Shown here: in pieces, positions 44,094 through 59,521 of the stretch
How positions within the stretch are numbered: position 1 is the stretch's first letter
Layout: the number at the start of each line of letters is the position of its first letter
DNA from: Paenarthrobacter sp. JL.01a
GTDB lineage: Bacteria; Actinomycetota; Actinomycetes; Actinomycetales; Micrococcaceae
Assembly: GCF_025452095.1 (NCBI RefSeq)
Contig: NZ_CP104877.1
Coordinates: 1,674,001-1,738,000, forward strand
DNA length: 64,000 nucleotides
Reading direction: 5' to 3'
The notes under the pieces: model-generated
Told to the model about the DNA's origin: nothing
The model's input: only the letters and a program-made list of their open reading frames with translations
Database searches by the model: none
Translations under genes and position numbers: made by a program

Positions 44094-44840
44094 ATGACCG
44101 TGATCACAGCTGAAACGCTGCCCGCAGAGCTTCACAAAGCCGCCGGCAACCTCACCCGCCTCCTGGCCAAGATGGACGAAGCATCCGTCACTGAACCGTC
44201 GGAACTTCCCGGCTGGACGCGGGGGCACGTGCTGGCGCACCTGACCGGTATTGCCAACGCCATGGCGCGGCAGCTGGAGTACGCGCGGCGCGGCGAAAAG
44301 ATCGAACTGTACGACGGCGGCATGGAAGGCCGCACGAAGGCGATCAACCTCGCCGCGGGACACAGCTTGGGCGAGCACACGGCGTCCGTCACCACGGCGG
44401 TTGATTCGGCGCTTGCAGCGTTCGACGCTGTGGGTCCGGACGGCTGGCAGGCGCGCATCAGCTACCGTGACGGAACAGTGCTCGACGGCGGCCTGGCGCT
44501 GTGGCGCGAACTGACCATCCATGCGTCGGATCTTGGATTGGGTTTCGGTCCGGAGACGTGGAGCCGGTCATTCTGCGAGCACCTGTTCGATTTCCTCTCG
44601 GCAAGGGTCCCGGGGGAGTACAAGTTCGTGCTCCAACCAGCCGGCCTGCCGCCACGGACACTTGGCAGCGGAGGAACGTCCATTGCGATCACAGGCATGA
44701 TCACGGATATCGCCGCATGGCTGGCGGGCAGGGAACCGAGCCTGGGTTCACTCCGCGCCACTGCAGCGGCCGACGGCGTGGACCTCCCCGAGCTCCTTCC
44801 CTGGCCCGCCGGAGTCCCCGCAGAGCCAACCACCCGGTAA
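44094..44840 (+). CDS. Maleylpyruvate isomerase-family, mycothiol-dependent-type protein (DinB fold)
   Basis: 248 aa. The LPGWTRGHVLAHLTGIANAM segment (residues 38-57) is the hallmark of the mycothiol-dependent maleylpyruvate isomerase N-terminal domain, and a third metal histidine is likely in LALWRELTIHASDLGLG. The C-terminal part (about 170-245) ends ITDIAAWLAGREP. These four-helix metal enzymes use mycothiol as cofactor; the substrate here is unknown, as no aromatic-degradation genes are nearby. Confidence 0.85.
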   Translation: MTVITAETLPAELHKAAGNLTRLLAKMDEASVTEPSELPGWTRGHVLAHLTGIANAMARQLEYARRGEKIELYDGGMEGRTKAINLAAGHSLGEHTASVTTAVDSALAAFDAVGPDGWQARISYRDGTVLDGGLALWRELTIHASDLGLGFGPETWSRSFCEHLFDFLSARVPGEYKFVLQPAGLPPRTLGSGGTSIAITGMITDIAAWLAGREPSLGSLRATAAADGVDLPELLPWPAGVPAEPTTR

Positions 44841-44841
44841 T

Positions 44842-45150
44842 CCCGCACCCTCTCTCACATTCCCCCGGTTTGATCCGCACCCTCGCTCATGTTCCCGGGG
44901 GTTTGGTCCGCACCCTCGCTCATGTTCCCGGGGGTTTGGTGCGCACCCTCGCTCATGTTCCCGGGGGTTTGGTGCGTACCCTCGCTCATGTTCCCGGGGT
45001 TTCGTGGGCACGCTCGCTCATGTTCCCGGGGTTTGGTGCGTACCCTCGCCCACGTTCTCGGGGGTTTGGTGGGCACGCTCGCTCATGTTCCCGGGGTTTG
45101 GTGCGTACCCTCGCCCACGTTCCCGCCGTTGCGCGGTAGCCGTTCGACGC
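44842..45150. repeat. Tandem array of nine 32/33-bp units
   Basis: Units such as CCGCACCCTCGCTCATGTTC + CCGGGGGTTTGGT follow each other without spacers (unit starts at 44842, 44875, 44908, 44941, 44974, 45006, 45038, 45071 and 45103). Copies 2-4 are almost identical; the first and last are more diverged. The last unit runs into CCGTTCGACGCCGGGGG. Located after the stop of the forward gene and before an oppositely oriented array. Confidence 0.92.
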
Positions 45151-45162
45151 CGGGGGCCGCCT

Positions 45163-45275
45163 CGGTATGTGAGCGAGGGTTGGGTGGAAGGCCTCGGGAT
45201 GTGAGTGAGGGTTGGGTGGAAGGTGGGGGGATGTGAGCGAGCGTTGGGCGGAAGATGGGGGGATGTGAGTGAGCG
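45163..45275. repeat. Oppositely oriented 32/33-bp array (three and a half units)
   Basis: Units of the form ATGTGAGCGAGGGTTGGGTG + GAAGGTGGGGGG, period 32-33. The core GTGAGCGAGGGT is the reverse complement of ACCCTCGCTCAT/C in the left array, so the two can pair. The array ends at the stop codon of the glycosylase gene (45276). Confidence 0.88.
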
Positions 45276-46805
45276 TCAGCGCTTCGCGGCAGCCCGCCAC
45301 AAGTGCATCGTGGCGTACGAGCGCCAGGGACTCACGTCCCGGAAATCGGTGCTGAGCCCGAAGCCGGCAGGCAGCGCCTTGAGGCCGTTACGTGCAGCGG
45401 CGTCGTTGGCGAGGAAGACATCGGGCGCGCCCAGTACCCGCATGGCAACGTAGCCTACTGTCCATGGACCCACTCCGGGCAGCGGAAGAAGTTTGCGTCC
45501 CAGGCTTTCGAGGTCGTCGCCGTAACCGAAATCAAGAGTGCCTGCGGCCATCGCCTCGGCCACGGCAATGATGGAGTCGATGCGGCGCTGCGGTCCCCGC
45601 AGCAGGGCGCGACCATGTTCGGCGATTTCTGCCGCCGTCGGAAACAGCCGGTCCGGACCGGACACGGTGCCTTCTGCGCGTGAGCCCGCTACTGACAACT
45701 GCGTCAGGGCAGTCCGGGCCGCAGCGACCGTGATCTGTTGCCCGATCATCGCCCGGATCAGCAGCTCTTGCGGATCGACTGCTCCGGGAACCCTGATCCC
45801 GGCGGTGGCCCTCACCGTATTCGCGAGCCGGGGGTCCAGGGCCAGGGCATCATCGATGGCCTCCGGATCCGCATCCAGGTCGAAGAGCCTCCGCACCCGG
45901 CTCAACAGGGCAGGAAGGTCATGCAGGTCCACAGCTGAGGCGGTCAAACGCAATGGTTTGCCGGGCAATGAAGGGCTGTAGGTGACGGTGAACGACGCCG
46001 TACCACGCGGGAGCCGCAGGGTGCGGCCGTAGCTCCGTGTGCCGGGGGCAGTTCCGGCGGTTCCATCTTCAGCCGCTTCGATGCCCGGAACCGCACGCAC
46101 GGCCAGGAAGTCGAAGATCCCTGGGTCGAACGGTTTCCGATACGGCAGGTTAAGTGTCAGCGTGGCGGGTGCCGCCCCCGAGGCGGACGGTGCCCCCGCG
46201 GCCCGGACGGCCGTGCCCCGAGCCGCCGTGCCCCGAGCCGCCGTGACCCGAGCCGCCGTGCCCCGAACCGCCGTCGGGGTCATGGCGAAGACCTCGCCGA
46301 TGGTGTCGTTGAATTGCCGGATGCTGTTGAACCCCGATGCGAAGGCCACGTCCGCAAGTGGCATGTCGGTGGAGACCAGCAGTGTCCTGGCTGTCTGGGC
46401 CCTGCTGGCCCGCGCCAGGGAAAGCGGGCCGGCGCCCAGCTCGTGCCCGAGGATGCGGTTGAGCTGCCGTGCCGAGTAGCCCAACCGACGTGCCAGGCCG
46501 TCGACCCCTTCGCGGGTGATGACGCCGTCGTTGATCAACCGCATGGCGCGCCCGGCGACGTCCGAGCGCAGGTTCCAGGCAGGGGTCCCCGGTACGGCTT
46601 CGGGCAGGCAACGCTTGCACGCGCGGTACCCTGCCTCGTGGGCGGCGGCCGAGGTTTCGTAGAAGGTGACGTTCGCGGCTTTTGGCGTGCGGGCCGGGCA
46701 CGATGGCCGGCAGTAGATGCCCGTGGAACTGACCGCCGTGAAGAATTGGCCATCGAAGCGGGTGTCGCGGGCGTCGATCGCCTTGTAGCGCTGCCAGAAG
46801 TCCAT
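45276..46805 (-). CDS. Ada N-terminal + AraC helix-turn-helix + AlkA DNA glycosylase fusion
   Basis: 509 aa. Zn-binding Ada domain (residues 1-75) with YCRPSCPAR and ACKRC cysteines; AraC-type helix-turn-helix (about 85-180, [20 protein letters not shown]); a low-complexity [20 protein letters not shown] linker; then the AlkA fold from about 215 with HhH-GPD ([18 protein letters not shown]) and the catalytic aspartate in FLANDAA. It would sense methyl phosphotriesters and remove 3-methyladenine. Divergent from a second glycosylase (46889). Confidence 0.92.
46210..46269. repeat. Four 15-bp repeats in the glycosylase linker
   Basis: Unit GCCGTGCCCCGAGCC in four adjacent copies with one or two changes, in frame, encoding (RGTAA)n on the minus strand. 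Copy number could vary between strains. Confidence 0.85.
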
Positions 46806-51249: not shown

Positions 51250-51283
51250 GGGCCGGCAACCGCTATGGTTGCCGGCCCTTTTT
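51250..51283 (+). terminator. Intrinsic terminator of tyrS
   Basis: 12-bp stem GGGCCGGCAACC (51250-51261) / GGTTGCCGGCCC (51267-51278), loop GCTAT, then TTTTT. Confidence 0.93.
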
Positions 51284-51291
51284 GCGTTTCA

Positions 51292-51389
51292 GGACCCTCT
51301 CTCACGTTCCCGGGGTTTGGTACGGACGCTCGCTCATGTTCCCCCGGATTCGGTGCTGATGCTCGCTCACGTGGGTGTTCGACGGCGGG
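51292..51389. repeat. Second copy of the 32/33-bp repeat family (about three units)
   Basis: Units begin at 51292, 51322 and 51355 with cores CTCTCACGTTCCCGGGG, CTCGCTCATGTTCCCCCGG and CTCGCTCACGTGGG. As in the array at 44842, the last unit is followed by GTTCGACGGCGGG. Lies directly behind the tyrS terminator. Confidence 0.88.
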
Positions 51390-51690
51390 TGGTTGGGTTG
51401 CTTGGTCGGTTGGTGTGATGGGGTTCACGGGCCGTGTTTTGGCTGGGTTTCGGGTGATTTTGGGGTGGTGTGGGCTGGTTTGGCTTGTGTTTGCGGGGTT
51501 TTTGAGTGGCGTGGGGGTGGATTTGTGTTGGGTGTTGGGGGCGTGTAATGTCTTCTGAGTCGCCGCGAGTGAGACAGCTTGGAGCTGGGAACTGCGGAGG
51601 CCAACCCCCTTGATGACAGCCTGAAAATGGTGCGCTTTTGAGTGTACTGGTGCCGGGTGGGGGCCGAGGATTTGATCTGGAGTCGCGGTA
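51390..51690 (+). other. Gene-free, strongly G/T-rich upstream region of the rRNA operon
   Basis: No credible gene. The plus strand of about 51390-51560 is dominated by G and T (for example GGGTTTCGGGTGATTTTGGG). The open reverse frame through it is compositionally abnormal and rejected as coding. Confidence 0.6.
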
Positions 51691-57651: not shown

Positions 57652-57711
57652 ATGAGCGACTACGCACGCGCCAGTGGTCGGCTCGCAACAGGAGGAATCC
57701 ACCATGGCTGA
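57652..57711 (+). CDS. Possible 19-residue upstream ORF overlapping the RG-rich gene start
   Basis: ATG at 57652 encodes MSDYARASGRLATGGIHHG and stops at TGA 57709-57711, 8 bp inside the next gene. An AAGGG stretch is only 4 nt before its ATG. It covers the ribosome site of the main gene, so translation of one could affect the other. Could be chance. Confidence 0.3.
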   Translation: MSDYARASGRLATGGIHHG

Positions 57712-59521
57712 GCACAACGGCGGCAATCGCGGCGGCAATCGCGGAAACTTCGGCGGTAACAAGGACGGCCGCGGGTCGTTCCGCGCCAACAACAATTCCG
57801 GAGGGGACCCCAGGGGCTTCCGTTCCAGGGAAAACCGGGATGGCAATGATCGTCCTTCCCGTGACGGTGAGCGCCGGTCGTTCGGTAATGACCGTGGCGA
57901 TCGCAAGCCGTTCGGCGACCGTCCCGAGCGAGGTGCCCGGAACTTCGATGGTCCCCGCCGCGACAGCAACGACCGCAAGCCCTTCGGTGATCGCGGAGAC
58001 CGCGCGGATCGTCCGGCCCGTGACGGTGAGCGTCGTTCGTTTGGCAGTGACCGCGGCGACCGCGGTGACCGCAGGCCTTTCAGCAACGACCGCAAGCCCT
58101 TCGGTGATCGCGGAGACCGCGCGGATCGTCCGGCCCGTGATGGTGAGCGTCGTTCGTTTGGCAGCGATCGCGGTGACCGTAAGCCGTTCGGTGACCGTCC
58201 TGAGCGTGGTCCGCGGAACTTCGATGGTCCCCGCCGCGACAGCAATGACCGCAGGCCCTTCAGTAACGACCGCAAGCCTTTCGGCGACCGCGCGGATCGT
58301 TCGGCCCGTGATGGTGACCGCCGTTCGTTCGGCGGTGACCGCAACGACCGCGGTGACCGTAAGCCATACGGTGACCGTCCTGAGCGTGGTCCCCGGAACT
58401 TCGATGGTCCCCGCCGCGACAACGACCGCAGGCCCTTCAATAACGACCGGAAACCCTTCGGCGACCGTGGTGATCGTCCGGCCCGTGACGGTGACCGCCG
58501 TTCCTTCGGCAATGACCGCGGCAACTCCTGGGAAGAACGCCCCGCCCGTGTTCCCAACGCCAAGGACATCCGCAGCTCGAACCGTCCCGACCGCGAACGT
58601 TCTCCCGAGATCGACGAGGATGTCACGGGTAAGGAACTGGACCGTGCCACAGGCCACCAGATCAAGACCCTCGAAGAGCAGAGTGCCGGCTGGGTCGCCA
58701 AGCACCTGGTCATGGCCGGCCGCTTGATCGACGTTGAACCGGAGCTGGCCTTCCAGCACGCCTTGGCCGCCAGTCGTCGTGGAGGCCGTCTCTCCGCTGT
58801 CCGTGAGGCAGTAGGTCTCACCGCCTACGCTGCCGGACACTACGGCGAGGCCCTGCGCGAATTCCGGACCTACCGCCGCATCAGTGGATCCAACGTCCAC
58901 CTGCCGGTGATGGCCGACTGCGAGCGTGGCCTTGGCCGTCCTGACCGTGCATTGGACATGGTGCGCTCTCCTGAAGCCCAGGATCTGGATGCCCCGGGCA
59001 AGGTGGAGTTGGCGATTGTGGCTTCCGGTGCCCGGGCCGACCTTAACCAGCTTGAAGCAGCTGTCAGCGAGCTCGAGATCCCGCAGCTGGATATCAATCG
59101 GGCTTTCTCCTACAGCCCCCGGCTCTTCCGCGCTTACGCTGAAGCGTTGAACGCTGTGGGCCGTGCGGAGGAGGCGGACAAGTGGGCCCGCCAGGCCGTG
59201 GTCGCCGAGAACGCTTTGGGCGTCGGAGAATTTGCCGAGCCTGAAATTCTTGACCTTGGTTGGGACGAGCAGGAAGAAGAAGCCGCGCGTAAGCCGCGCT
59301 TCCAGAAAGCGGCCCAGGAGACCGACGTCGTGCAGCCTGAAGCCGAAACGGTCATCGCGGAAGCTGCCGCGGCTGACGTAGCCCACGATGACGTTGAACT
59401 CGATGACGCCGAGTCGGACTACTTTGAGTCCGATGACGCCGAATCGGACATTGACTCTGCCGAAGACGACGAAGAAGCAGAAGAAGCAGACAACGAGGGC
59501 ACTGACACCCGGCATGGCTGA
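57704..59521 (+). CDS. RG/RD-rich repeat protein with helical (TPR-like) core and acidic tail
   Basis: 605 aa from the ATG at 57704, which has a perfect AGGAGG site; the track-independent earlier start at 57674 lacks one. Residues about 1-300 are a low-complexity basic region of Arg/Asp/Gly/Asn with repeated blocks (RDGERRSFG five times, NFDGPRRD three times, KPFGDR many). Residues about 310-535 are helical and TPR-like (GWVAKHLVMAGRLIDVEPELAFQHAL, AAGHYGEALREFRTYRRI, RAEEADKWARQAVVAENALG). Residues 540-605 are highly acidic. Such RG regions often bind RNA; function otherwise unknown. It follows the rRNA operon and overlaps the HAD gene by 8 bp. Confidence 0.85.
   Translation: MAEHNGGNRGGNRGNFGGNKDGRGSFRANNNSGGDPRGFRSRENRDGNDRPSRDGERRSFGNDRGDRKPFGDRPERGARNFDGPRRDSNDRKPFGDRGDRADRPARDGERRSFGSDRGDRGDRRPFSNDRKPFGDRGDRADRPARDGERRSFGSDRGDRKPFGDRPERGPRNFDGPRRDSNDRRPFSNDRKPFGDRADRSARDGDRRSFGGDRNDRGDRKPYGDRPERGPRNFDGPRRDNDRRPFNNDRKPFGDRGDRPARDGDRRSFGNDRGNSWEERPARVPNAKDIRSSNRPDRERSPEIDEDVTGKELDRATGHQIKTLEEQSAGWVAKHLVMAGRLIDVEPELAFQHALAASRRGGRLSAVREAVGLTAYAAGHYGEALREFRTYRRISGSNVHLPVMADCERGLGRPDRALDMVRSPEAQDLDAPGKVELAIVASGARADLNQLEAAVSELEIPQLDINRAFSYSPRLFRAYAEALNAVGRAEEADKWARQAVVAENALGVGEFAEPEILDLGWDEQEEEAARKPRFQKAAQETDVVQPEAETVIAEAAAADVAHDDVELDDAESDYFESDDAESDIDSAEDDEEAEEADNEGTDTRHG
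57880..58530 (+). repeat. Degenerate coding repeats in the RG-rich gene
   Basis: Near-identical blocks of about 85 bp recur about 117-120 bp apart around 57970 and 58090 (GACCGCAAGCCCTTCGGTGA onward), with looser copies to 58530. They encode the RDR/KPFGDR repeats and suggest expansion by slippage or unequal exchange. Confidence 0.75.

Follow-up and report, generated by a model that had tools for sequence, protein, structure and literature searches.

Directional 32-bp repeats at gene ends in Paenarthrobacter: a repeat family with a putative role in ending transcription

Introduction

What is the function of a long array of direct repeats that occupies the gap between two convergent genes? Such an array is found in the window, the stretch of 64,000 nucleotides of the Paenarthrobacter sp. 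JL.01a genome analysed here, between a gene of the mycothiol maleylpyruvate isomerase family (MDMPI/DinB-like) and an Ada/AlkA DNA repair gene. A preliminary description, made from the sequence alone, regarded it as a possible bidirectional terminator or protein-bound array. We report on the organization of the array, on its relatives in this genome and in other species, and on the explanations that may account for them.

Results

An array with two arms

The features of the locus are listed in Table 1. The two-armed array (44847-45276) is far above chance. With up to two mismatches allowed, the window contains 15 matches to its core where 0.7 would be expected, and none of 100 shuffles reaches 15; with one mismatch, the genome carries 39 matches, compared with 0 for the reversed control pattern. 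The nine + strand units occupy 44843-45131. Cores of the + arm start at 44847, 44879, 44912, 44945, 44978, 45010, 45042, 45075 and 45107 (spacings of 32, 33, 33, 33, 32, 32, 33 and 32), and those of the - arm are found at 45163-45180, 45195-45212, 45227-45244 and 45259-45276. The complementarity of the cores of the two arms is as originally described. Both lengths of the reported 32/33-bp unit were also observed, but 33 bp is confined to the left arm.

The array reaches from stop to stop, since the upstream gene of the + arm ends with TAA at 44838-44840 and the - arm begins with the last A of the Ada/AlkA TGA codon (45278-45276). The claim that repeats fill this gap holds for its ends, but it passed over the unique centre between the arms. 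The in-register hairpin present in some other loci of the family is absent from this centre.

Table 1. Coordinates of the arrays and of adjacent features in the window.
Feature	Position	Strand	Basis or remark
MDMPI/DinB-like gene (mycothiol maleylpyruvate isomerase family)	44094..44840	+	ORF list; Pfam PF11716, PF07398
+ arm, nine units, sense to the MDMPI gene	44847..45124	+	32/33-bp units
Unique centre between arms, 38 bp	45125..45162	none
Minus-strand (-) arm, four cores (3.4-4 units), sense to the Ada/AlkA gene	45163..45276	-	spacing 32
Ada/AlkA DNA repair protein gene, upstream of the - arm	45276..46805	-	Pfam PF06029, PF02805, PF12833
Intrinsic terminator-like hairpin with T-run, after tyrS, ahead of the second array	51250..51286	+	sequence reading
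Second array of the family, three units, with tyrS on one side and the rRNA operon on the other	51294..51376	+	tyrS by Pfam, rRNA by Rfam

The second array of the window lies upstream of an rRNA operon. Another array upstream of rRNA genes is found at genome position 161416; flanks of a similar kind, free of genes, are seen for the arrays at 921956 and 3985947, the assignment of rRNA by Rfam covering the window and 161416 arrays. The sequence that follows the second array in the direction of the 16S gene (51354-51440, GTTCGACGGCGGGTGGTTGG...) is found again after the arrays at genome positions 161.6 kb and 3985.9 kb, and probably belongs to an upstream region common to rRNA operons. Other tandem repeats in the window are a 15-bp repeat within the Ada/AlkA coding region (46202-46274) and long repeats of 117 and 177 bp at 57964-58519, inside the gene at 57704-59521.

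The repeat unit

The unit is 32 bp long and consists of a conserved core, ACSCTCKCTCACRTCCC, and of a linker that is free apart from a TT doublet at positions 24-25. The consensus, obtained from one unit per arm in 207 arms, is W-C-S-CTC-K-CTCAC-R-TCCC, followed by six free or weakly biased bases, the TT doublet and seven more bases. A11 and T14 are near-invariant. A spacing of exactly 32 accounts for 494 of the 523 intervals in all related arrays. Between neighbouring units, differences are seen at 7.5% of the conserved core positions and at 7.4% of T24/T25, compared with 19.7% of the other linker positions, as though purifying selection acted on a defined pattern within the unit. Conservation of the TT doublet is not an artefact of the scan, as the weight matrix that found the units ignored it. 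The core is still under selection in single arms that have no partner.

No internal stem was found in the unit: the single-unit folding energy is -4.87 versus -4.17 for shuffled sequences, and no column pair has a convincing excess of pairing. The sense strand is rich in YC steps (9.3 per unit versus 2.5 in the antisense strand), and sense-strand array RNA contains 38% C and 25% G, whereas background 3' flanks are balanced. Some linkers are G-rich, as in GGGGGTTTGG of the + arm in the window, and the C-rich, G-poor character is weaker there. Although direct repeats of about 32 bp recall CRISPR arrays, that identity was rejected, as in the preliminary description: unique spacers are absent, linkers repeat along with the unit, and the family features facing arms and about 50 gene-end loci.

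Placement of arms

A sequence model of the unit has 153 matches in the 4.4-Mb genome, and a weight matrix, which favours the core, identified 50 loci that comprise 69 arms and a total of 178 units; most gene ends have no array. Placement was analysed in 203 arms, derived from the loci of this genome and from 80 loci, chosen by a two-unit pattern, in named Paenarthrobacter and Arthrobacter genomes. Gene positions were obtained with a custom gene caller. All but two arms (201/203) map outside genes. A same-strand gene precedes the arm in 138 of the 180 arms that are flanked by genes on both sides, and in 48 of these 138 arms the final base of the stop codon is also the first base of the arm (9 arms have the next commonest offset). 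Adjacent arms face each other (-> <-) in 35 pairs and have the other order (<- ->) in 4. Two-armed loci are nonetheless a minority, as 125 of the 203 arms lie outside any facing pair, and the single arm without a partner is the commonest form. A replichore-directed motif, hinted at by the first match list, was discarded once all arms were listed.

Folding of facing arms

The two arms had been proposed to fold as a large hairpin on both strands. The window array does fold in this way (z of -5.5 and -4.5), and the mean folding z of 35 two-armed loci is about -6. Arms pair no better within than between loci, however, the duplex energy being -46.8 for matched arms and -47.1 for arms shuffled across loci. 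The identity of arm cores is 13.7 of 18 for matched arms versus 13.2 for shuffled arms, the matched value being reached in 20 of 2000 shuffles, and the closest-matching arm pairs include loci with a perfect centre. The two-armed fold thus largely follows from the presence of the same unit in both directions. For this reason, and because single-armed arrays outnumber two-armed ones, the large hairpin was rejected as the main conserved feature.

A co-varying hairpin

A hairpin with the pattern ACGCYCnnnCAC-loop-GTGnnnGRGCGT is found in most genomes of the genus; among the sampled genomes of other genera, only two carry it, once each. The free triplets pair in 36 of 46 hairpin loci (shuffled mean 9.4, maximum 18 in 2000 shuffles), and sixteen different triplets were observed. 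None of the 46 hairpins maps inside a gene or between divergent genes. Copies of the half-arm occur exactly 32 nt upstream of the hairpin (8.5 of 12 bases, against a background of 3.4) and exactly 32 nt downstream (7.7 against 3.5); further copies follow at 64. In the clade of the window, only 20 of 121 single arms feature the hairpin, formed by the last or in-register following half-units; 16 of these 20 hairpins are in register at +32, compared with about 2 at control offsets. Upstream units share the hairpin triplet above chance (74 letters versus 58.8; maximum 69 in 2000 shuffles).

Distribution across the genus

In a sample of 150 genomes of the genus, about 20 carry rich sets of the first model, R1 (17 or more matches). 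Among the species tested, those rich in R1 are the closest by AlkA identity (83-90%), most R1-poor ones falling at 74-79%. A second model, R2, derived from divergent units, revealed rich sets in further species of the genus. Units of the R2 clade keep the 32-nt spacing (91/95) and TT at 24-25, and are mostly in sense orientation. A 32-bp tandem array is absent from a 400-kb sample of one poor species. The family is shared by many species of the genus. A fully sporadic distribution, suggested by R1, was also rejected, as R2 finds a 32-nt unit variant in other species and R1-rich species are the closest by AlkA.

Units or clear remnants lie between the same two genes at the alkA locus in 18 of 18 clade species. 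MDMPI-sense units are nearly always present and alkA-sense units are found in few species only; hence, the single arm is the common state at this locus. In some species (loci L243, L248, L250 and L254), an antisense unit (ACGTGAGAGAGC) contains the TGA that closes the alkA frame, and the stop codon is thus supplied by the repeat. In one genome (G008, locus L239), both arms carry strongly diverged 32-bp units that are alike within each arm, which looks like concerted evolution.

At the bcp locus, a unit starts on the stop codon in 20 of 20 clade species; behind it comes a hairpin of the type ACGCCCGCTCAC..GTGAGCGGGCGT, which is mostly in register. Three outgroups (G001, G003 and G006) feature one diverged unit and a hairpin behind bcp, and another outgroup locus (G073) has an A-tract, a hairpin and a T-tract.

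No Rfam family matches at or above the gathering score in the array regions searched. A phage or plasmid origin was rejected: no phage match was found, and the two weak plasmid matches are both on megabase replicons of one Arthrobacter. We found no description of the repeat in Arthrobacter in the open-licence literature, which is weak evidence of novelty; the family is previously unnamed.

Discussion

The family probably marks the end of transcription, as suggested by its placement and direction, its anchoring to stop codons, the YC-rich RNA, the scarcity of conventional terminators and the co-varying hairpin. We propose, at roughly even odds (about 0.5), that the window array belongs, as an expanded member, to a family of gene-end elements found across the genus, the units of which load termination machinery, most likely Rho. 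The basic element would be a short hairpin behind the stop codon, with spare arm copies at exact 32-nt steps on either side, sense ones before the hairpin and reverse ones after it; in this clade, sense copies would have multiplied, and the hairpin would often have been lost. Once the ribosome has been released at the stop codon, the exposed RNA would be a run of CUCKCUCAC-type units, where this machinery may load repeatedly, and RNA polymerase would stop inside or just behind the array. Each of two convergent genes could own an arm, so that neither would be read through into the other. Position, orientation and the hairpin found across the genus, with its in-register arms, speak for the early suggestion of a bidirectional terminator, but termination itself is what we infer from them.

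Rho is encoded in the genome. Conventional terminator-like hairpins with T-runs are found at only 6 of 36 array-bearing gene ends, and the window array has no T-run; in the same scan, such terminators are also scarce at gene ends without arrays. High-G+C actinobacteria have few of them (for Streptomyces, see PMC12207403). Some arrays, such as the one behind tyrS, are already preceded by an intrinsic terminator, which counts against the termination explanation, as does the limitation of arrays to about 50 loci. Sense RNA that is C-rich and YC-rich immediately after the stop codon is reminiscent of rut sites of Rho-dependent terminators, but the repeats differ from them in their conserved sequence, fixed bases and fixed register; to our knowledge, ordinary rut sites have no strict consensus. 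Loose recognition of YC by Rho alone leaves A11, T14, TT at 24-25 and the strict 32-nt register unexplained, leaving room for a specific protein. Of the candidate agents, Rho, loading on the YC-rich sense strand, is the first choice and a sequence-specific protein its main rival. A dedicated, lineage-specific termination system, in which a sequence-specific factor or a specialised Rho would read half-units in the strict 32-nt register immediately after the stop codon and the number of units would set the strength of termination, is a tentative and rather unlikely extension.

A sequence-specific protein other than Rho might bind the repeated unit, either as a roadblock on DNA or on RNA, and stop polymerase in one direction, much as tandem terminator-protein sites are arranged behind eukaryotic rRNA genes. 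The strict 32-bp register, which corresponds to about three helical turns and is kept in two clades, the fixed single bases and TT doublet, the strong directionality of arms and the maintenance of single arms without a pairing partner would all fit such binding. We nevertheless hold it to be unlikely, as the hairpin triplets co-vary freely, as would be predicted for paired bases but not for a half-site bound by a protein, and no candidate protein was identified. Base pairing is central to an intrinsic terminator in which opposite arms would form nested transcript hairpins that stop polymerase from either side. Like bidirectional intrinsic terminators, the family has a gene-end hairpin, often between convergent genes, that co-varies; the low folding energies of two-armed loci relative to shuffles, the excess of facing pairs and the triplets shared with upstream units also agree with pairing. 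However, the family features tandem arms at 32-nt steps, T-runs are mostly missing, the hairpin is often missing in this clade, most arms have no partner, and matched arms are no better in energy than mismatched ones, making this alternative decidedly improbable.

A REP/BIME-like or selfish extragenic repeat, able to spread and tolerated behind genes, whose side effects would be on supercoiling or mRNA stability, is in our estimate very unlikely. REPs are short extragenic repeats found behind convergent or co-directional genes, clustered and in facing pairs, and sometimes supply the stop codon (PMC3733652). The many extragenic copies near stop codons described here, behind convergent and co-directional genes, are similarly placed (PMC3733652, PMC12306157). 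In contrast to REPs, including GTAG- and CGTC-tagged ones, the unit is directional, non-palindromic, in strict register and sense to the upstream gene, and a single unit folds about as weakly as shuffled sequences. The Y1_Tnp/RAYT transposase (PF01797) has 0 matches in this genome, controls being positive, and a mobile REP/RAYT family was rejected. Positions are moreover conserved across species at the two loci tested, alkA and bcp, and selection acts within arrays.

The mirrored arms of the repeat family appear to evolve in concert, and the family could be a source of insulator parts and of markers for strain typing. How most transcripts of high-G+C actinobacteria end is not settled, and a repeat that is anchored to stop codons, kept in a fixed register and spread over a genus is a defined, testable candidate terminator.
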